The translations under genes and the position numbers were made by a program. DNA of 64,000 bases, taken from an uncultured Clostridia bacterium. GTDB lineage: Bacteria; Bacillota; Clostridia; Oscillospirales; CAG-272. The notes beneath the pieces are model-generated. The model did no database searches, was not told the DNA's origin, and saw only the letters and a list, made by a program, of their open reading frames with translations. Positions 15,899 to 58,207 of the stretch are shown piece after piece. Each line of letters opens with the position of its first letter. Positions within the stretch are counted from its first letter, which is position 1. Location: the NCBI GenBank assembly GCA_946407735.1, contig CAMJPL010000002.1:1-64000 (forward strand). Reading direction: 5' to 3'.

Positions 15899-16849
15899 TC
15901 AGTTGCATTCGGCCTGAAGCGGACCGGCGAGCTCCTTGAGGAAGAACAGCTTGCCGGGGAGAGTCGGCATGAAGGTCGACGGCAGCCATATGGACGGGCC
16001 GTAGCGCAGCGTGCCCCATACCTCAAGGCCCTGCCACATCATGCCGCGTCCGAGAGCTCCGTCGCAGCCGCCGATGCAGTAATCGGAGGAGAGGAAGAGA
16101 GCGGGACCGATGGTGTTGGCGCGGCAGGGGACGAGAGTCGTGCGCGACTTGAATGAGGTGATCGCGTTCTGCTCGATGGTCAGCGGATGCAGCTTGGCGC
16201 CGAGACGGTAGGCGTTGGCCTTCCATTCCTCGAAGGAATTGAACTCGGCGGCGAAATGCGGCTCCCAGAAGGCGATATGGAACATGCGCCCGATGCCGTA
16301 GACGGTCACGAGCTTGGCTCCCTCGGCCTTGAGGGCGGCGATCTTCTCGGGATAGGTCGGAAGATTGGTTTTGGTGGCAAAGTTCCGCTGGCACTCGGGC
16401 ACGGTGAGCTCGCCGAGAGGACCGTAGAAGGCGCCCGTCATGGCGTTCTGGAAGGCTCCCGGATCGTCGGCCGGCAGGGTGTTGCCTTCTCCGTCGGCCC
16501 ACTCGTCCATGTTGAAGCCGTAGACATGAGAGCAGGAGACGTTCCACTCCTTCAGGAAGTAGACGGCCCAGCGGTACATGCCCATCGGGCCTACCGGCAG
16601 GATCAGAGCCAGCTTGCGTCCCTCGTCGCGGGTAGTGCGGATCTGCATGGCGATCTCGTGACCCATCATCATGTCGAAGTCGGCGAGCTGATCGCACTGA
16701 ACCGGCTTGAAGCAGTCGTTCCAGTGCGGCTGTCTGTCAAGTATGTCCTCGGGCGGATTATTACAGCAGTCATCCAGCTTCTGCATATCCCAGCCGGCCG
16801 GGAAGAAGCCTTCAAGAAGAGAGCCTTTAACGGTTGACATGAAATCCAT
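15899..16849 (-). CDS. Glucosamine-6-phosphate isomerase/6-phosphogluconolactonase superfamily protein (NagB-like)
   Basis: [26 protein letters not shown] and [17 protein letters not shown] resemble NagB motifs. Confidence 0.75.
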
Positions 16850-16910
16850 GATGTTTTACCTCCGGATGTATGTTGTTTGTTGCTATCCTGATAAAATTAT
16901 TGAACGGAAA

Positions 16911-18140
16911 TCAGAAATTCTCTATTTCGGAATTGACTATATCCGCCCATTCGGTGAGACACTCGGGACGGCGGCTGATGGTCGTCAGATCCTTGAGCAC
17001 GAAGGCGACGGGCGTGCCGCTACCGCGGCAGGCGGCGAGCGTCTGACGCGTCTCCTTTTTCACCGAATCGACGTCGGGATGACCGCTCGCGACAAAGGCC
17101 GGATTGGATTTCCTCAGCATGACGAAATCCTTTCCCATGGCCTGCGACTGACGCTCGACATTCGTCCATGGGCTGGCCGAGATCGACCGCACCGTCTTCA
17201 TCTTGCGGATTATGCCGATCTTCGAGTCAAGCGGCTCGCAGCAGCCGTAATTTACCCAGCCGAACCTGTCGTAGAGCGGCTTCATGTACTCGATCTCGAA
17301 CTCGTCGTGCATGGCCGGAGAAACCTCCGAGAATATCTGGGCCGCGCCTGAGATCCAGCAATCCTGCGTGCGGATTCGGCTCTGGTCGATATCCCGCCAG
17401 CGCTGCTCGTCGACGTACGTCTCGACGCAGTGGCACTTCGTTCCGACTCCGGCCGCGAGAAGGTTATGCGCTTCAAGCTGGTCGATGTAATCCATCTCGA
17501 TGTCGACCATCTTCCGCATCAGCCTGTGAACGAACTCCGGCTCGTCTATGACGGCGTACAGGCATGACTCGGCGCCTTTGCAGAAGGTTATGAAATCCCA
17601 TATCGCCGCCCAGATCATCACTCCCATCGGCCGCACCTCGAGGATGTCTCCGACGATCTCCTCTGCGTGAGCCTTATTCGCCGCCGTGAGGTCGTCGTGT
17701 ACGGTTATCACATGGTTGTGCAGCTTTTTCAGGGCATCGTCGTCGGCGAGCTGATCTATGTAAAGATGGGTCTGAGCTCCCTTGTGGTCGCTCTCGTCCT
17801 GATTTACCGAATGCACTCCGTATCCGGTGTCCTCGAATACCTTCGATACCGGATAGAACGGCGGGAGCACAAGATCGGCGCCGAAATGGTCGTGACGGTA
17901 CATCTCATAGCGGAAATATGACTCCATACCGCGGAGGAACCCGTCCTCACAGACGCATCTGAGCTCCTCCTCGCCGCCGAACTCATGCCAGCAGATCTGG
18001 TCGATGATAACGGGAGGCCTGGCAGTGCTGTCGAGCGCGTTCAGACGTCCCCAGTTCGCAGCTTTCGCCTTCGTTTCATCGGAAATGGCGATTTCGGCGT
18101 ACCGCTTCGCGAGATCCCGGACGATTTCTCTTTCATTCAT
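16911..18140 (-). CDS. Uroporphyrinogen decarboxylase (URO-D)-like protein
   Basis: Overall layout and YGCCEP motif; adjacent to a second URO-D-like gene. Confidence 0.65.
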   Translation of the reverse strand: MNEREIVRDLAKRYAEIAISDETKAKAANWGRLNALDSTARPPVIIDQICWHEFGGEEELRCVCEDGFLRGMESYFRYEMYRHDHFGADLVLPPFYPVSKVFEDTGYGVHSVNQDESDHKGAQTHLYIDQLADDDALKKLHNHVITVHDDLTAANKAHAEEIVGDILEVRPMGVMIWAAIWDFITFCKGAESCLYAVIDEPEFVHRLMRKMVDIEMDYIDQLEAHNLLAAGVGTKCHCVETYVDEQRWRDIDQSRIRTQDCWISGAAQIFSEVSPAMHDEFEIEYMKPLYDRFGWVNYGCCEPLDSKIGIIRKMKTVRSISASPWTNVERQSQAMGKDFVMLRKSNPAFVASGHPDVDSVKKETRQTLAACRGSGTPVAFVLKDLTTISRRPECLTEWADIVNSEIENF

Positions 18141-18165
18141 GACGCTGATAAATTGTGTGGCTGTA

Positions 18166-18876
18166 TTACGGAAGCAGGCGCTTCGTCGGGATCCTCGGCC
18201 ATGTCATGCACATGCGGAAGCCCTCGGCGTAAGCGACGCCGCACTGATATCCGCGGAACTTCGAGCAGGTGCGCACGAAGTCGCAGAAGTCTATATGATC
18301 GTGCTCAAGCATCCATTTGATCTGGCTCTCGTGGCACTGGAGCGCCTGTATCTTGAGCTCTATCGTGTCGGAGATATCGACGTATTCGGTCGGAAGGAAG
18401 TTCACTCCGCCGAGATTGTCCATGTAGTATATCGGGCAGTCGTTTCCGCCGAAGGCGGGCGACTCGGTCACATAGTGGACGACGGAGGTCGAGAAGGACG
18501 CGTTGAAGACGGCCTTTCCGGTCTCGACGTGGTCGCGCATATAGTCCTTGTCGTCATGAGTGATTATGGCGTCGGGCTTGGCGTAGCGGACGACCTCGCA
18601 GATGCGGCGGGCGAGATCCTCGTCGTAGGATGAAACGAACAGATCTCCGATGTCAAGATTGATGACCTCTTTCGCGCCGAGCAGCTTGCCGCCCTCCTCG
18701 GCTTCCTTTGTCCTGATCTTGCCGAGCTCGTCCGGCTCGATGATCACGTGTCCGAGATTTCCGTTGGCAAGATGGCAGAGGATGACGTCGTCGCCGCGCT
18801 GAGCGTATTTGGCGATGGTACCGCCGGCGGCGATCTCAAGGTCGTCAGGATGACATGTGATTGCGAGTATGCGCAT
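18166..18876 (-). CDS. PIG-L family deacetylase
   Basis: MRILAITCHPDDLEIAAGGTIAKYAQRGDDV is a PIG-L signature (HPDD). Confidence 0.93.
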   Translation of the reverse strand: MRILAITCHPDDLEIAAGGTIAKYAQRGDDVILCHLANGNLGHVIIEPDELGKIRTKEAEEGGKLLGAKEVINLDIGDLFVSSYDEDLARRICEVVRYAKPDAIITHDDKDYMRDHVETGKAVFNASFSTSVVHYVTESPAFGGNDCPIYYMDNLGGVNFLPTEYVDISDTIELKIQALQCHESQIKWMLEHDHIDFCDFVRTCSKFRGYQCGVAYAEGFRMCMTWPRIPTKRLLP

Positions 18877-47668: not shown

Positions 47669-49369
47669 ATGGCTGATAATATACCCGGAAAAACAAGAAA
47701 GACAAACCGGCGTCTCCTTATCTTTTACGACGCGCTGGGGATCATTGCCGTCTGGGCTCTTATCCTGGCACTGCATCCCTCAAGTCCCAGACCGTTCAGC
47801 GGCAATGTACTGATATATAATCTGATCGCCGCGCTCGTCTGCTTCACGGGCTTCCGCCTGATATTCGGCGTCTACCGCATGATATGGCGCACCGGCAATG
47901 TCGGCGCCTTCGCGAGGGAGACCGCCGCGCTTATTCTCGGAGTCCTTTCATACCTCGCGCTGTCAAGGATTGTCTCCGGTCTTCCGTTCACTACGGCGCT
48001 GGCGTTCTCCGTGACATGTGCGGCAATCGGCATATTCGGCAGGATAGCGTATTATTACGTCTACCGTCTGGCGAAGAAGGACAATCCGTTTTCAAGGGCG
48101 CTGAAAAAGCTAATCACGGCGCTTACTCTTGTCGACTTCGACTCGGAGGCCGACGGAGGCGTGATGCGGGTTGTGCTCGAACCCGCCGAGGCGTCTCACA
48201 GCCCGATAAACGAGATCCAGGCTGTCGCCGAGAAATTCGCCATACGCGGCGAGATCACGTCGGTGACACAGATCAACAAGGGTTATATCAACCGTACTTA
48301 TAAGATCGAAACGCTTTCCGAGACCGGTCACGTCCATAAATATCTCCTGCAGCGGATCAACACGAACGTTTTCCCGGATGTCGACGCTCTGATGAGCAAT
48401 TTCAAGCTCACGACAGATCACCTTCTCGGCAGGCTGAAGCTGCCGGGGAGCGGAAAGAAGGGATCGGTCCAGACGAGCAGGCCGACAAAGGACGGCAGGG
48501 CCTATCTTTCCGATCAGTCGGGATGCTGGAGAACGCTCGTGTATTTCGACGGAGTTTACTCACTTGATATCCCTGACAGTCCTGAAACATTCTATTACGC
48601 CGGAAAGGCGTTCGGAAGCTTCATACGCGAGATGTCGGACGTCGATGTATCCGACGTGGCGGTAGTCATCCCGAACTTCCACAATACGGCGAGCCGCTAC
48701 CGTGACCTTGAAAAGGTGATAGAGAAAGATCCGAAGGGCCGGCTCGCGGCAGTCATGCCGGAGGTGGAATTCATCCGCGCAAGATCCGGCAGCTTCGGTG
48801 TTATAACCGAAGCCCTTGAGTCGGGGAGGATCCCGACCAGAGTATGCCACAACGACTGCAACCTGAATAACATCCTGTTCGACAAGGAGACTCACCTGCC
48901 GGTCGCCATCATCGACCTTGACACCGTCATGCCGTCCTCGCCGCTTTACGATTACGGCGACAGCATGAGGATCGGCACCAACACCGCGACAGACGACGAA
49001 AAGGATCTCTCAAAGGTCTCCTGCGACCTCAATCTTTACGCGAAGTACGCGAGAGGCTATCTTGAAGAATGCGGACATATGCTGACAAAGGAGGAGCTAG
49101 AGCTTCTTCCGCTCGCCTCTCTCATAATAACGAGCGAGGACGGCATACGCTTTTTGATGGATCACATCGACGGCGACACCTATTACAACATCTACTATCC
49201 CGGACAGAATCTCGACAGGTCGAGAACGCAGCTCGCTCTGCTCGCCGATATGGAAAGAAAGCTGCCGGATATAATCGCGATTCTGCGGGATATCTACACC
49301 GGGCTCGGTCTTGACGCCGAGCTTGACGAGGATAAGATTACTTCAATGTGGAGGATCAGTAAATCATGA
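47669..49369 (+). CDS. PglF/CapD-type N-terminal membrane domain fused to a NahK-like N-acetylhexosamine 1-kinase/APH-fold phosphotransferase
   Basis: N-terminal 4-TM region with GFRLIFGVYRMIWRTGNVGAFARE; C-terminal INKGYINRTYKI, YLLQRINTNVFPDVDALM, RVCHNDCNLNNILFD, AIIDLDTVMPSSPLYDYGDSMRIG. Confidence 0.88.
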   Translation: MADNIPGKTRKTNRRLLIFYDALGIIAVWALILALHPSSPRPFSGNVLIYNLIAALVCFTGFRLIFGVYRMIWRTGNVGAFARETAALILGVLSYLALSRIVSGLPFTTALAFSVTCAAIGIFGRIAYYYVYRLAKKDNPFSRALKKLITALTLVDFDSEADGGVMRVVLEPAEASHSPINEIQAVAEKFAIRGEITSVTQINKGYINRTYKIETLSETGHVHKYLLQRINTNVFPDVDALMSNFKLTTDHLLGRLKLPGSGKKGSVQTSRPTKDGRAYLSDQSGCWRTLVYFDGVYSLDIPDSPETFYYAGKAFGSFIREMSDVDVSDVAVVIPNFHNTASRYRDLEKVIEKDPKGRLAAVMPEVEFIRARSGSFGVITEALESGRIPTRVCHNDCNLNNILFDKETHLPVAIIDLDTVMPSSPLYDYGDSMRIGTNTATDDEKDLSKVSCDLNLYAKYARGYLEECGHMLTKEELELLPLASLIITSEDGIRFLMDHIDGDTYYNIYYPGQNLDRSRTQLALLADMERKLPDIIAILRDIYTGLGLDAELDEDKITSMWRISKS

Positions 49370-50106
49370 GAGCGATAGTCCCCGCCGCGGGAAAAGGAAA
49401 ACGGCTTCATTCCGAGGAACACGATCTGCCGAAGGTCCTGCATAAGGCATGCGGCAGGCCTCTGCTCGAAACAGTGCTCGGACAGCTCGATTTCATCGAC
49501 AAAAGCGACATATACATCGTCGTCGGCTACCAGAAGGAAAAGGTCATCGACTATTTCGGCGATGAATACCGCTACGCGGTGCAGGAGCAGCAGCTCGGCA
49601 CAGGGCATGCCGTCATGATGTGCGAGCCGTTTTTCCGTGACTATCACGGCACCGTCCTTGTCACCTTCGGGGACATGCCTCTCTTCCGCCGGGAGATCAT
49701 GAGAGACATGTGCAGATATCACGAGGAGAAAAAGGCCGCATGCACCCTTCTGACCGCTGAGAACCCCGAGCTCAGGATGTGGGCAAGGATCGTGAGGGAC
49801 GACGCCGGGCGATTCTCAAGGATCGTCGAGGGAAAGGACTGTACGCCGCAGCAGGCGGAGATAAAGGAGCTGTTCTCCGGTGTCCTTGTCTTTGACAGCG
49901 ACGCGCTGTTCGAGACACTTCCGCTGATAGGCAAAAACAACGTCCAGGGAGAGTATTATCTGACCGAAGTCCCCCAGCTGATGGCACAGCGCGGGATGAC
50001 CGTCGAGACCTATATGACAGACGACGGCGACGATCTCCGCGGCGTCAACACTCAGGAGGATCTTGCCGTATGCGAGGCGGTCATGAGAAAACGCGGCATG
50101 GCGTGA
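49366..50106 (+). CDS. Sugar-1-phosphate nucleotidyltransferase, GlmU N-terminal-like, stand-alone
   Basis: MRAIVPAAGKGKRLHSEEHDLPKVLHKACGRPLLE; EQQLGTGHAVMM; LVTFGDMPL; ATGA overlap with the preceding CDS. Confidence 0.92.
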   Translation: MRAIVPAAGKGKRLHSEEHDLPKVLHKACGRPLLETVLGQLDFIDKSDIYIVVGYQKEKVIDYFGDEYRYAVQEQQLGTGHAVMMCEPFFRDYHGTVLVTFGDMPLFRREIMRDMCRYHEEKKAACTLLTAENPELRMWARIVRDDAGRFSRIVEGKDCTPQQAEIKELFSGVLVFDSDALFETLPLIGKNNVQGEYYLTEVPQLMAQRGMTVETYMTDDGDDLRGVNTQEDLAVCEAVMRKRGMA

Positions 50107-50190: not shown

Positions 50191-51552
50191 ATGATCATGA
50201 AAAACACGCTTCTCGCCGGATTTGCCCGGCTCGATATCACTCCGCCTCTCGGGATCGGGATAGCCGGTTACTATGTGGAAAGAAAGGCGGAGGGGATCCT
50301 CGATCCGCTCGAATGCTCCGCCCTTGCCGTCTCCGACGGAGATAATACCCGCGTCATAATCTCGATCGACACCTGCGGCGGAGCCGGTACTAAATATTAC
50401 ACCTCCGCGAGAGAGGCGGCGGCAAAGTCGACCGGCATCTCCTCCGACGGCGTCTTCATTTCTTCCACTCATACCCATACAGGCCCCTACTGGGGGGAGC
50501 GCGACAGCGAGATCGAGAAGAGATACACCGAATTTCTGATCGGCAGGATGGCCGACGCGGCTTGTCTCGCGGTAAAGGACATGAAGCCGGCGAAGCTCGG
50601 CATCGGCGCCGGGACGGCTCACAATATCGCCTTCATCCGCAGATATGTGATGAAGGACGGCAGGATCCGCACGAATCCCGGCGTGAACAATCCGGATATC
50701 GTCCGTCCCGTCGGGGATGTCGACGAGAGCGTCGGCGTGATGAGATTCACTCGGGATGACGGTCCGGAGATCGTTCTGCTGAACTTCGGATGTCATCCGG
50801 ACGTGGTGGGCGGAAATCTGATATCCGCCGACTGGCCGGGCTTCGCGAGAAGAACGGTCGAGAGGTCGCTTGACAATGTGCGCTGCATCTTCCTCAACGG
50901 CGCCGAGGGCGACGTGAACCACGTCAACGTGCACCCGAAGGGCGGCGATCTGAACGGCATGTTCATGGATTTCGACGATGTGTCGAGAGGATATCCTCAT
51001 TCCCGCCACATGGGTAACGTGGTCGCGGCGGCGGCGCTGCAGGCGTACGAGAAGGTCGAGTGGCGTGACGTTTCAAGGGTGGGAGGAAAAATAATGACTC
51101 TTACCCTCCCGTCAAATTTGCCGACGAAGGAACAGCTCGTCTCGGCGCGAGAGATCGCGTCGCTTCACAGAGCCGGAAGGGACAAAGATATCCCGTTCGA
51201 AGCCATGGAGCTCACCACCGTCGTCGCCGAGGCGGAAAGGATGCTTCGTCTTGAGAACGGCCCGGAATCGTTCGCTATGCCGCTCTCGTCGCTGTTCATC
51301 GGCGATACGGCGTTCATCGGCATCCCCGGCGAACCGTTCGGCGGCATCGGAAAGGCTCTCAAGCAGGCTGACGGATGGGCTATGGTCCTGCCCTGCTGCA
51401 TAACGAACGGCTACGAGGGATATTTCCCGATGAAGGATTCCTACGACGAGGGCGGATATGAGGCGAGAAGCTCGATATATGCAGCCGGAGCCGCCGAGAG
51501 GATAATCGAGGAAGGCCTTAAGCTGCTGTCGGAGATACGAAAAGACATCTGA
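50191..51552 (+). CDS. Neutral/alkaline ceramidase N-terminal-like domain protein
   Basis: LAGFARLDITPPLGIGIAGYY; FISSTHTHTGPYW; LLNFGCHPDVVGGNLISADWPG; FLNGAEGDVN. Confidence 0.85.
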   Translation: MIMKNTLLAGFARLDITPPLGIGIAGYYVERKAEGILDPLECSALAVSDGDNTRVIISIDTCGGAGTKYYTSAREAAAKSTGISSDGVFISSTHTHTGPYWGERDSEIEKRYTEFLIGRMADAACLAVKDMKPAKLGIGAGTAHNIAFIRRYVMKDGRIRTNPGVNNPDIVRPVGDVDESVGVMRFTRDDGPEIVLLNFGCHPDVVGGNLISADWPGFARRTVERSLDNVRCIFLNGAEGDVNHVNVHPKGGDLNGMFMDFDDVSRGYPHSRHMGNVVAAAALQAYEKVEWRDVSRVGGKIMTLTLPSNLPTKEQLVSAREIASLHRAGRDKDIPFEAMELTTVVAEAERMLRLENGPESFAMPLSSLFIGDTAFIGIPGEPFGGIGKALKQADGWAMVLPCCITNGYEGYFPMKDSYDEGGYEARSSIYAAGAAERIIEEGLKLLSEIRKDI

Positions 51553-51676: not shown

Positions 51677-51705
51677 TTGACTTCATATCGGATTTGTGAT
51701 ATAAT
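51677..51705 (+). promoter_or_regulatory. sigma70-type promoter (TTGACT-17-TATAAT)
   Basis: TTGACT 51677-51682, TATAAT 51700-51705. Confidence 0.8.
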
Positions 51706-51785: not shown

Positions 51786-52958
51786 ATGTCAAGAATCTGC
51801 ATCCCCGATTACGAGTACAAGGAAAGAATCGCGAAAGCCGCGAAGATGGTGCGCGACAGAGGGCTTGATGTGATGCTGGTCGTCAGCACAGAGTCTGATT
51901 ACGCCAACGCCCGCTATTTCAGCGGCTTCTGGCCGCTGTTCGAGCGCGCCGGTGTCGCGGTCTCCGCCTCGGGAGACGCGTGTCTGCTCGTCGGTCCCGA
52001 GTCCCCGATCTTCGCCAAGGACTTCGGCAAGATCGACAAGGTATTCGTTTTGAAAGAATTCCGCGAAAGCGCCGATCCGTCCTATCCGGAGCTCATCCCG
52101 GATTCCTTCAAGGAGGCGTTCGCCGCTATCGGCGTAAAGGGCGAAAACATCAAAATCGGACTCGGAAGCTATGTCGAATGCACGCTGCCGATCCTCGACG
52201 GGCTGAAAGACAACTTCCCGAAGGCCGAGATATCCTACTGCAACGACATAATGGTCGAGCTGCGCAAGATCAAGAGCGAAAATGAGATCGCCTGCATACG
52301 CGAGGGCTTCCGCATAGTCGACATCGCGACGGACGAGGTCATCCGCGCCCTTAAGCCCGGCGTCACCGAGCTCCAGATGGTCGGCGTGGCCGAGCGCGTG
52401 ATATACGAAAACGGCGCCGAATACGAAGGCCTGCCGATGTACGTTTTCAGCGAAAAGTCGACGCGCCATGCGATCAGCCGCTCAAGCTACCGCGTCATCG
52501 AGAAGGGCGACATAGTCCAGCTCAATCTCTCAGCCAAGATCGACGGTTATTCTCCGTCCACCGGTCTGCCGGTCGTTATGGGCAAGATCACGCCCGACCG
52601 CAGACGCTACATCGATTTCTGCCTTGAGATGCACAACTGGACGGTCAAAAACCTAAAGGCCGGGATCCCGGCCGGAAAGATCCCGCAGGAATTCTATCAG
52701 AAATTCATCGACGCCGGATATAAGGACAACTTCGTCTACGGCCCCTGCCACGGAACCGGCATGATCGAGGTGGAGGCTCCGTGGATGGAGACGACATCGG
52801 ACTGGATACTCGAAGAGAACATGACCTTCCAGGTCGACACCTTCATCTCCGGCCCGACCTTCGGCACCCGCTGGGAAAAGGGCGTCGTCATCAAAAAGGA
52901 CGGCTGCGAAACGATGACAAACTATCTTGAGAAGGGACTGATCGAGCTTGACTTCTGA
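51786..52958 (+). CDS. M24 family (Xaa-Pro peptidase/creatinase-like) pita-bread enzyme
   Basis: N-terminal creatinase-like domain; IMVELRKIKSENEIACIREGFRIVD; FVYGPCHGTGMIEVEAPW; RBS AAAGGAGAAT. Confidence 0.92.
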   Translation: MSRICIPDYEYKERIAKAAKMVRDRGLDVMLVVSTESDYANARYFSGFWPLFERAGVAVSASGDACLLVGPESPIFAKDFGKIDKVFVLKEFRESADPSYPELIPDSFKEAFAAIGVKGENIKIGLGSYVECTLPILDGLKDNFPKAEISYCNDIMVELRKIKSENEIACIREGFRIVDIATDEVIRALKPGVTELQMVGVAERVIYENGAEYEGLPMYVFSEKSTRHAISRSSYRVIEKGDIVQLNLSAKIDGYSPSTGLPVVMGKITPDRRRYIDFCLEMHNWTVKNLKAGIPAGKIPQEFYQKFIDAGYKDNFVYGPCHGTGMIEVEAPWMETTSDWILEENMTFQVDTFISGPTFGTRWEKGVVIKKDGCETMTNYLEKGLIELDF

Positions 52959-52962
52959 GAGC

Positions 52963-53322
52963 ATGGGAAAAACCAGATGGCTGATCCCCGACTGCGAGCT
53001 CCCTCCCGAGGGAGACGGGGTCCTCAAGGGGCATGAATCGGTCATCATCGTGAACGACAGCGGCGAGGACGCCGAGATCGAAGTAAAGCTGTACTTTACC
53101 GACGAGGAAAGCGTTTCCGGGATCTTCTGGCACGTCGGCGCCGACCGCGTGAAATGCTTCAGGATGAACAATCCCGACGACATGGGCGGCTTCATCGTCC
53201 CGAAGGAGACCCAGTACGCGATGAAGCTGGTATCGTCCTGCCCTATCGTCGTGCAGTACGGAAGACTGGACAACCGTCAGACGAATCTCGCCTATTATAC
53301 CACTCTCGGCTACGCCGAGTAA
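52963..53322 (+). CDS. Anabaena sensory rhodopsin transducer (ASRT)-family protein
   Basis: MGKTRWLIPDCELPPEGDGVLKGHESVIIVNDSGEDAEIEVKLYFTDEE; CPIVVQYGRLDNRQTNLAYYTTLGYAE. Confidence 0.9.
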   Translation: MGKTRWLIPDCELPPEGDGVLKGHESVIIVNDSGEDAEIEVKLYFTDEESVSGIFWHVGADRVKCFRMNNPDDMGGFIVPKETQYAMKLVSSCPIVVQYGRLDNRQTNLAYYTTLGYAE

Positions 53323-53332
53323 GGAGAATCGT

Positions 53333-54067
53333 ATGAGACTGGATTTTTGTTTTCCCCGTGAGCTGGAAGAAGCCAAAAAGAAACGGACTCCGGTGGTGAT
53401 CCCCGGCGGCACCGTCGAATATCACGGGCCGGCCTGCGGTTACGGCTGCGACACGCTGATAGTTGAGGGACTGCTGAATGAGCTCGCCAAAAAGCGAGAG
53501 CTAATCATCGCCCCGTCGATCAGCTACAGTCCTTCTAGCTGGGCGGTCGGGGGCGACACCTCGGGAACCGTGCATGTGGATGAGGTCATCTTCGAGGAAT
53601 ACCTCTACAACATATTCTGGAGCATGCTCTCGGCGGGGCTGAGGAACATCTATGTCGTGATCCATCATCAGTTCGAGGAAGGCAGCTTCATGCCGATGAC
53701 CCTCTCATACATGAAGGCCGGAAAGCGCGCGACGATGCGGTATCTCGAAAAGACTCTCGGTCAGGGCTGGTGGGGCAGCGAAAGCTACGCCGATTATTAC
53801 GACAATCTCGGCGGCGCCGATGATCCCTTCTCATGGATCAAGGTCATCCCGGCGATGTCTCCCAGAGCCCAGAAGGAGACCGGCTACGATCACGCCGGCA
53901 AGTACGAGACCTCGCTTCTGATGGCGCTCTACCCCGACGCGGTACATCTCGACAGGCTCGGCGACATCAAGCACTGGTTCACCAAAAACGCGGTCGAGGC
54001 AAGTCCCGAGCTCGGCCGCAGGATGATGGAGATCAGTCTCGCCGATCTCGATGAAGCGATAAAGTAA
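53333..54067 (+). CDS. Creatininase family protein (divergent)
   Basis: VVIPGGTVEYHGPACGYGCDTLIVEGL; IIAPSISYSPSSWAVGGDTSGTVHV. Confidence 0.85.
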   Translation: MRLDFCFPRELEEAKKKRTPVVIPGGTVEYHGPACGYGCDTLIVEGLLNELAKKRELIIAPSISYSPSSWAVGGDTSGTVHVDEVIFEEYLYNIFWSMLSAGLRNIYVVIHHQFEEGSFMPMTLSYMKAGKRATMRYLEKTLGQGWWGSESYADYYDNLGGADDPFSWIKVIPAMSPRAQKETGYDHAGKYETSLLMALYPDAVHLDRLGDIKHWFTKNAVEASPELGRRMMEISLADLDEAIK

Positions 54068-54091: not shown

Positions 54092-54176
54092 GAAAAATGA
54101 AGACGGCATCCCCGCGACCGGCATGGGTGATATTTCTCCCCTATGCGCCCGGCGGCGATGTCTGTCTTCATTTTCT
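54092..54176 (+). terminator. Long imperfect hairpin terminator
   Basis: AAAAATGAAGACGGCATC ... GATGTCTGTCTTCATTTTCTTT. Confidence 0.6.
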
Positions 54177-54233: not shown

Positions 54234-55325
54234 ATGAAACTTTATCTCAGACGTGAATTGTTCACCGAAAAAGAGTTTATTCTCGCCGAGGAGGGCGGGA
54301 TGCGCGCCACGGCGTTCCGGTATTCCACCGGAGTCGAAGCCCTGAGGATAGAAAACAGCCGCGGATATATAGTCATCCTTCCGTTTATGGGACAGCAGAT
54401 ATGGGATATCCGCTTCGACGGCAGAGATCTTAAAATGATGACCGGGATCCGCGAGCCCCGCATGACCGACAGCTTCCTAAAAACATACGGCGGATTCCTG
54501 TACCACTGCGGCCTTCGTTCCATCGGCGCTCCCGACGCGGACCATCCGCAGCACGGAGAGCTTCCGAACTGCCGTTATGACAGCGCCTGGCTTGAATCCG
54601 GTGTTGATGAAAACGGCGCATGGATGGAGGTCGGAGGAAAGGTCGATTATCAGATCGCCTTCACATACGGATATGCGTTCTCTCCGAAATGCCGCTTATA
54701 TGAATCGGCCGCTTCTGCCGAGACATGCGTGACGATAGAAAATCTCCGCCGCCAGCCGATGGAATACGCCTACCTCTGCCACATCAATTTCCGGCCGTTT
54801 GACGGCGCCGTCATCCGCGATACCGCGCCGAGAGACGCGGATCACGTCAAAGTTCATCGGGTGATCCCGGATTCCCTGCCGGAGGATCAGAAAAAGGCTC
54901 TTTCAGAATACATGGACAGGCTGAGCCTTGATCCGTCCGCGATGGATCACGTCGGAGATGAAGGTCAGTGCTATATGCCGGAGATCTGCTTCACCCTCAA
55001 ATATCTGACAGACGACGGCGGATACGGTTATACAATGCAGTGTCTGCCGGACGGAAGCGCCTGCTGCGTAAAGCATCCGGCCGCGATACTGCCATACGGC
55101 ATACGCTGGATCTCGCGGACCGGAAACGAGGATTCGATGGGCATGATCCTCCCCGCGACCGCCGAGCATCTAGGATATCGGTACGCGAAGGAGAACGGTC
55201 AGATGCGGACGCTTCCCCCGGAAGGAAAGATATCGTTCTCGGTCGTATTCGGCTTCCTGTCAGAGAATGAGGCCGCTCCGGTAAAGGAGAAGATCGGCGG
55301 GATATTGTCGGAATACCGGCGGTGA
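54234..55325 (+). CDS. DUF4432/aldose 1-epimerase-like protein
   Basis: FMGQQIWDIRFDGRDLKMMTG; FLKTYGGFLYHCGLRSIGAPDADHPQHGELP; similar architecture to 34248-35234. Confidence 0.85.
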   Translation: MKLYLRRELFTEKEFILAEEGGMRATAFRYSTGVEALRIENSRGYIVILPFMGQQIWDIRFDGRDLKMMTGIREPRMTDSFLKTYGGFLYHCGLRSIGAPDADHPQHGELPNCRYDSAWLESGVDENGAWMEVGGKVDYQIAFTYGYAFSPKCRLYESAASAETCVTIENLRRQPMEYAYLCHINFRPFDGAVIRDTAPRDADHVKVHRVIPDSLPEDQKKALSEYMDRLSLDPSAMDHVGDEGQCYMPEICFTLKYLTDDGGYGYTMQCLPDGSACCVKHPAAILPYGIRWISRTGNEDSMGMILPATAEHLGYRYAKENGQMRTLPPEGKISFSVVFGFLSENEAAPVKEKIGGILSEYRR

Positions 55326-57396: not shown

Positions 57397-58207
57397 GTCT
57401 GCTGACACTATTTCAACCACACAATAATATAAGCAAACTGAATAAAAAGGCAAAATACATAGAATCAAGCTTATCGTAACGGGTAAAAACTTTTCTGGAT
57501 TCTTTAAGCCAACGAAAAAGTCTTTCGATTATATTTCGTCGTTTATATAGATCCTTATCATAATCCCATGGTTCTTTATGATTCTTCTTAGGAGGAACCA
57601 CAGGCTTATGAGAATACGCTTCAGCAAGACTGCGAGTCTTATCGCCTTCATAAGCCCTGTCCATAAGAAGCGGCACACCTTCATAAATATTTCCTACTTT
57701 TTCGATAGACACTCTTCCTTCTGGAGCGTCATGAATGTTTCCGCCTTAGAGGTGCATTTCAATGATTGTCTTGTCATCTGCGGATACCACGTGAAGCTTG
57801 GTATTCCAGCCTCCTTTGGACTTTCCGATTGCTTGTTTTCCGTTTTTTTTAAAGCCCCTTGTCCATCAGGGTGTACTTTGCACGATGTGCTGTCCAGCGC
57901 AAGTACTTCAACTTTAATAGATATGATCTTTTCTTGCTGCCTGGCAGTAAATATGCGCCGGATCACTCCATTTGAAACCCAACGATTAAAACGCTTGTAT
58001 ATACTGTTCCAATTGCCGTATTCTTTTGGTAATGCCCTCCATTTGCATCCGTTTTCGGCGATATACAATATTGCATTTATGAAATCGTAGTTGTCGATTT
58101 TTACATTCCCGCGTTGAACCGGAAATGGCCTCTCTATTCTTTTGAATTGCTCATGTGATATTTTCATATAGATATTATGTCACATATTTGTTTTAGTGTC
58201 AACAGGC
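57396..58207 (-). mobile_element. IS5-family (IS427-like) insertion sequence
   Basis: DDE transposase ORFs 57694-58167 and 57413-57712; imperfect terminal inverted repeats GTCTGCTGACACTA / GCCTGTTGACACTA (reverse complement of right end). Confidence 0.88.
57413..58167 (-). pseudogene. IS5-like transposase, two frames joined at an A8 slippery site, with an in-frame TAA in the second frame
   Basis: First frame ...DGQGALKK; -1 frame continues NGKQAIGKSKGGWNTKLHVVSADDKTIIEMHL[TAA]GGNIHDAPEGRVSIEKVG...ERLFRWLKESRKVFTRYDKL. Confidence 0.8.

Follow-up and report, generated by a model that had tools for sequence, protein, structure and literature searches.

What would a protein of the ASRT family, named as a rhodopsin transducer, do between two enzymes with the folds of the classical creatinine pathway? 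For ASRT proteins outside Anabaena, suggestions since 2009 have been that they sense sugars or bind DNA. The locus that raises the question lies at positions 51786-54067 of the window, the whole 64,000-nucleotide stretch analysed here, from contig CAMJPL010000002.1 of an uncultured Clostridia bacterium (assembly GCA_946407735.1).

A compact three-gene locus with no rhodopsin partner

The initial annotation described three tightly packed genes on one strand, and their coordinates, open reading frames and Pfam families were all confirmed. On the plus strand, a creatinase-like M24 gene (51786-52958; 390 amino acids; Pfam Peptidase_M24, 5.2e-25, and Creatinase_N, 1.4e-7) is followed by an ASRT-family gene (52963-53322; 119 amino acids; Pfam ASRT, 1.5e-30, full length) and a gene for a creatininase-family metallohydrolase (53333-54067; 244 amino acids; Pfam, 2.4e-29). 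Read from the sequence, the intergenic gaps are 4 bp between M24 and ASRT and 10 bp between ASRT and creatininase.

Upstream on the same strand is a sigma-70-like promoter, TTGACT-17-TATAAT with an extended -10 TG (51677-51705), recognized by consensus match only. It was the top of five promoter matches in the region, a count at chance level (4.1 expected). Shuffled sequences had an 11/12 site within 250 bp upstream in 1.3% of cases; among orthologous loci, 4 of 68 had one, which is only weakly above the shuffles. The strong promoter of the initial annotation is therefore present and plausible, and it is a good match in this genome, but the orthologous loci do not conserve it. A long stem-loop (54094-54174, plus strand; RNA fold -42.6 kcal/mol), likely a bidirectional terminator, occupies the interval between the trio and the next gene. 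Because a near-consensus promoter precedes the trio and this very stable stem-loop follows its third gene, the transcription unit probably consists of the three genes.

The absence of a rhodopsin gene, noted earlier for the window, extends to the source genome (93% complete), in which a family profile search found no rhodopsin above the family cut-off. The lone sub-threshold match, to a 241-amino-acid protein of another kind, reached 21.1 bits (cut-off 24.6) and covered 55 of 224 positions. As no cognate rhodopsin gene was found in this 93% complete genome, we rejected a role of the trio ASRT as a sensory rhodopsin transducer.

The gene order is conserved across gut Clostridia

In an order-level profile search of 394 genomes, 60 had an ASRT match, and nine further loci with the same M24-ASRT-creatininase order and orientation were found among the lower-scoring ASRT matches of the order. 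Trio-type genes, with M24-ASRT loci of the same type counted in, span five families of the order, and the M24-ASRT association reaches two Bacillota families outside it (L021, L022). A profile of the trio ASRT, searched against 85,462 species genomes, yielded 122 relatives, from which 80 loci were kept; all are from metagenome-derived Clostridia, mainly of ruminant and deer gut. The strict order on one strand was found in 65 of the 80, a set that was itself fetched with the trio pattern. Most of the other loci were explained by contig ends, small insertions and rearrangements, with one order swap and a few loci without creatininase. Single genes inserted between ASRT and creatininase encoded a glucuronyl-esterase-like protein, a Gfo/Idh protein, an aminoglycoside-N-acetyltransferase-like protein and a hexapeptide acetyltransferase. 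Conservation of the trio thus extends well past its source genome.

The M24 and ASRT genes of these loci adjoin directly or overlap, with a median gap of 1 bp (n = 77). Pairwise divergence was correlated among the three trio proteins, with r of 0.46-0.63 across 63 loci and no more than 0.19 in permutations; part of this correlation could come from shared species history. Searches for M24 relatives gave none in viral contigs and, in plasmids, only 'Xaa-Pro peptidases' of 24-26% identity among the matches listed.

The M24 protein is predicted to be metal-free

Alignment with prolidase 2zsg and creatinase 1chm placed the prolidase metal ligands D, D, H, E and E at N247, S258, H322, D351 and E364 of the window M24; the creatinase and creatininase reference segments used in the residue alignments match PDB chains 1chm and 1j2t. 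All M24 proteins whose genes are linked to those for ASRT, creatininase, phosphotriesterase, MlrC or CE4 carry the pattern [NGQAT][SATI]HDE, so that three of the five ligand columns differ from prolidase in all members except L199 (two of five), whereas the genome's own prolidase keeps DDHEE. Because the two bridging aspartates of prolidases are missing in every group member, we predict a metal-free, creatinase-type M24. Creatinase itself has N249 and A260 at the first two ligand positions, corresponding to N247 and S258. At two residues that we take to be catalytic in creatinase, however, the proteins differ: E262 is an invariant glycine in the trio group (G260), and the H232 column is I230 in the window protein, out of register, with an invariant histidine (H228) two residues away. 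Judged by these residues, the trio M24 is not a true creatinase.

An AlphaFold2 model of the window M24 (pLDDT 82) gave its top Foldseek TM scores with creatinase 7yto (0.77) and EutD 6yo9 (0.76), and its best E-values with prolidases, as did a PDB sequence search. NCBIfam scores were far below cut-off for PepQ (79 versus 630) and EutD (33.9 versus 613). Loops 226-233 and 327-332 of the model, which fall on the expected active site, have pLDDT below 50, and because these loops are of low confidence, enzymatic activity could have been lost. The group thus comprises a set of M24 genes that falls under peptidase family models despite missing the peptidase metal site. An ectoine hydrolase was rejected on the EutD score and because ectoine consumers are restricted to Proteobacteria (PMC5924519).

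A cysteine-less ASRT branch is tied to M24

The window ASRT matched PF07100 over positions 1-119 (106 bits, cut-off 25), and its nearest PDB entries were 2ii7 (Anabaena ASRT) and 1nc7 (Thermotoga TM1070). De Souza, Iyer and Aravind (2009) described an ASRT signature, SHEshChhN, and in TM1070 its His and Cys touch a 1,2-ethanediol ligand; they predicted that the ASRT/ASRAH superfamily binds sugars and regulates via protein contact, and reported ASRAH-domain fusions to amidase (PMC2739507). The words creatinase, creatininase, M24 and peptidase, as partners of ASRT, are absent from the main text of that paper. In the open literature, we found no link between ASRT and creatininase; a family-name search gave papers on rhodopsin, DNA looping and signalling (subscription literature lay outside its scope). 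Like TM1070 and the proteobacterial ASRTs, the trio protein is a stand-alone ASRT homologue, but it lacks the cysteine-type pocket of TM1070: its signature reads GHESVIIVN instead of SHExxCxxN, and the cysteine is replaced in all 105 members of its branch. In a tree, the cysteine-less proteins were set apart from the others by a branch with 99/95 support.

This division coincided with gene context. Within 1.6 kb, an M24 neighbour accompanied 95 of 105 cysteine-less ASRTs, a count that includes the 80-locus set fetched with the trio pattern, versus none of 55 cysteine-type ASRTs, for most of which the loci covered 1.5 kb per side only. In the unbiased genome searches alone, the figures were 25 of 33 versus 0 of 55. 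Eight cysteine-less ASRTs had no M24 within 1.6 kb. Because the sequences are related, cysteine loss and M24 context represent one evolutionary split and not 95 independent events. The cysteine-less branch supplies one named, testable ASRT partner, the putatively metal-free M24, and a sequence marker by which the two branches can be told apart.

Other ASRT genes had other neighbours. The second ASRT of the source genome, in which paralogues were found by family searches, adjoins genes for a HAD phosphatase, an SDR dehydrogenase and a xylose-isomerase-like protein. Two regions around plasmid ASRTs were inspected; they contained thiamine-diphosphate and sugar-oxidising enzymes but no M24. In L070 (6430-7658) and L073 (5540-6675), M24-free cysteine-less ASRT genes adjoin a gene resembling glucosamine-6-phosphate isomerase (Pfam Glucosamine_iso in L070), and a similar-looking gene is found near an M24-ASRT locus (L072:1886-2650). 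The same order also encodes metallo-beta-lactamase-fold proteins of about 530 amino acids with a C-terminal ASRT-like domain (L092:3050-4630, 27.4 bits; L093:3556-5160, 25.3 bits; Pfam ASRT cut-off 25), so that ASRT again goes with a hydrolase, here as an ASRAH domain fused to it.

The third enzyme is exchangeable

The window creatininase-like protein, the only member of its family encoded in the source genome, scored 102.9 bits against PF02633 (cut-off 31.3). Equivalents of creatininase E34, H36, D45, H178 and E183 are kept in 34 of 34 members (E29, H31, D40, H187 and E192 in the window protein). The strand carrying H120-Y-E122 in creatininase (NGHYE) reads IHHQFE here, with H112 aligned to H120 by MAFFT and hhalign and Q113 by phmmer. 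An active binuclear metal site is likely from this residue pattern. Creatininases were the only Foldseek matches of the AlphaFold2 model (pLDDT 90) with E-values below 0.001. Assignment to creatininase proper (TIGR04448; 64.8 bits versus a cut-off of 235), IolN (53.1 versus 245) or MftE (43.8 versus 172) was rejected. IolN, a 3-dehydro-scyllo-inosose hydrolase, resembles the trio protein as a ring-opening hydrolase of the creatininase family in a sugar/inositol pathway but differs in this score, and no inositol dehydrogenase set was seen linked to the trio.

Elsewhere in the group, the third position is taken by a phosphotriesterase (L055, L065, L072, L191, L192), an MlrC/M81 protein (L080, L082, L167) or a CE4 polysaccharide deacetylase (L058, L148, L188). 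In L167 (4706-10351), two M24-ASRT modules stand in tandem, one with MlrC and one trio-type, with an AraC-like gene between them. Separate searches with M24 and with creatininase also revealed pairs lacking an adjacent ASRT: seven M24-creatininase loci (L181-L187), of which three also have DUF4432 nearby; one M24-DUF4432 pair (L190); and M24-phosphotriesterase pairs (L191-L194, L196, L197, L200). Because some M24-creatininase pairs have no ASRT beside them, not every version requires it; the core of the group is a metal-free M24 with a metallohydrolase, and ASRT is an accessory partner in part of it. The view that ASRT is tied to the flanking hydrolases, put forward initially, is borne out by gene order, overlapping genes and correlated divergence, but the metal-free M24 is its main partner, and creatininase is one of several interchangeable ones.

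Neighbouring genes favour a sugar-derived substrate

Directly after the stem-loop, the window encodes a DUF4432 protein (54234-55325, plus strand; PF14486, 1.1e-14), of a sugar-epimerase-like family that recurs elsewhere beside the trio or the M24-creatininase pair. Upstream of the trio are a neutral-ceramidase-like gene (50191-51552, plus strand; just under the Pfam cut-off), with relatives near 3 of the 80 trio loci, and, at 47669-50106, an open reading frame in which membrane-like N-terminal segments are joined to an APH-type kinase domain, and after it a gene for a stand-alone GlmU-type nucleotidyltransferase. In L192, a phosphotriesterase-M24 pair has a similar nucleotidyltransferase nearby. 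Across the 80 loci, an AraC-type gene is located upstream and divergent in about 45, and the other neighbours included DUF4432-like genes (13), ABC ATPases (8) and Gfo/Idh/MocA-like genes (6), none of them universal. Glucosamine-6-phosphate-isomerase-like genes recur near loci of the group. No transporter or complete downstream pathway conserved with the trio was found among the compared loci.

Because DUF4432, Gfo/Idh/MocA, glucosamine-6-phosphate-isomerase-like and AraC genes recur nearby, and APH-fold kinase-like and GlmU-like genes lie upstream in the window, the substrate is more likely to be sugar-derived than creatinine-like. Of the amide/imide or sugar-derivative catabolic unit proposed initially, the sugar-derivative part is thus favoured by the DUF4432, Gfo/Idh/MocA and isomerase-like neighbours and the creatinine-like imide part disfavoured. 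Literature searches gave nothing useful on DUF4432, nothing bearing on the trio for a gut creatinine pathway and unrelated papers for IolN.

A proposed function and its alternatives

The regular pairing of M24 with ASRT, mostly with a third hydrolase alongside, suggests that gut Clostridia have a hydrolase system, not described before, for a sugar-type compound. We propose, and put the chances at even, that the trio is a small catabolic unit in which a ring-opening metallohydrolase and a metal-free M24 hydrolase act on a sugar-derived substrate, with ASRT as the ligand-binding partner of M24. The creatininase-like protein, predicted to be an active binuclear metal amidohydrolase, would open a cyclic amide, ester/lactone or ketone of the sugar-derived compound, and the M24, of the creatinase/ectoine-hydrolase type, would hydrolyse a C-N or C-O bond, either in the same intermediate or in the next one, by means of its conserved H322/D351/E364 set. 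The cysteine-less ASRT branch would have evolved as the partner of metal-free M24 proteins; most likely, ASRT would bind the substrate, product or a related sugar and contact M24 directly in a complex, as a ligand-sensing regulatory subunit. Expression of the unit is probably activated, in many relatives, by the AraC regulator encoded divergently from it. The trio would thereby mark a conserved hydrolase pathway in herbivore gut bacteria.

The two-hydrolase scheme is modelled on creatininase/creatinase and EutD/EutE in their pathways. Ectoine hydrolase EutD/DoeA likewise pairs an M24-fold ring hydrolase with a second hydrolase, the deacetylase EutE/DoeB, and is structurally close to the trio M24 (TM 0.76), but its family score is not approached and the second enzyme of the trio is from another family. 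A stronger version of the proposal, offered tentatively and with the balance of probability against it, would make this branch of 'rhodopsin transducers' a dedicated subunit of metal-free M24 hydrolases: ASRT would bind M24 and complete or gate its disordered active-site loops, and the M24-ASRT core would be plugged into creatininase-like, phosphotriesterase-like, MlrC and CE4 enzymes to give substrate-specific modules in gut Clostridia.

The strongest rival overlaps with our proposal. ASRT may be a general intracellular sugar sensor, as put forward by De Souza et al. (2009), that tunes the operon enzymes or a transporter and has no dedicated M24 partner. We regard this as possible, if not what we expect: the trio ASRT has the same Pfam family, fold and size as the proteins of PMC2739507 and is likewise a stand-alone intracellular protein beside catabolic enzymes, the trio has sugar-type neighbours, and the genome's second ASRT accompanies an SDR dehydrogenase and a xylose-isomerase-like protein. 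What a generic sensor does not predict is a branch that lacks the ligand-contact cysteine of TM1070 and has M24 as its constant neighbour. That ASRT instead regulates the operon by binding DNA, as reported for Anabaena ASRT on pec promoters, seems unlikely. Anabaena ASRT binds and loops DNA (PMC8660804), and DNA binding was also described in PMC3198991, but the reported binding is weak (about 10 uM) and depends little on sequence, with better looping of a random DNA (PMC8660804). Moreover, about 45 of the 80 loci have an AraC regulator of their own, and at the Anabaena DNA-contact residues R109, Q110 and N113 the trio has R or T, a kept Q, and L.

Two further readings take the enzyme folds at face value. 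Creatinine degradation, in which creatininase would yield creatine for M24 as the creatinase and ASRT would be accessory, would explain why both folds of the classical pathway (1j2t and 1chm) stand side by side, with creatininase and creatinase among the nearest folds and M24 resembling creatinase in its lost metal ligands. We nevertheless consider it very unlikely, given the low equivalog score, the substitution of creatininase W174 and S78 by Y and by Y or W, the glycine at creatinase E262 and the out-of-register H232; nor does a creatinine pathway fit the exchange of creatininase for phosphotriesterase, MlrC or CE4. The trio also differs from the classical pair in its added ASRT. It is still harder to believe that M24 is an ordinary prolidase or aminopeptidase and the linkage one of peptide salvage: prolidases do give the best PDB sequence E-values, but the changed ligand columns (two of five in L199, three elsewhere), the intact DDHEE of the genome's own prolidase and the PepQ score all argue against it.

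Further features of the loci

A protein of 700-730 amino acids (L109:4618-6759 and relatives) is encoded near about 15 of the 80 trio loci, and 12 of these have it downstream and in the same orientation; the 714-amino-acid downstream protein had no Pfam or PDB match. On the minus strand of the window, an IS4/IS5-type transposase at 57413-58167 is split into two overlapping open reading frames (DUF4096 and DDE_Tnp_1), as in frameshifted insertion elements. Also on the minus strand, the region at 15899-18876 encodes a protein that is NagB-like by eye, with no Pfam match, near a PIG-L de-N-acetylase, which suggests amino-sugar use elsewhere in the window.
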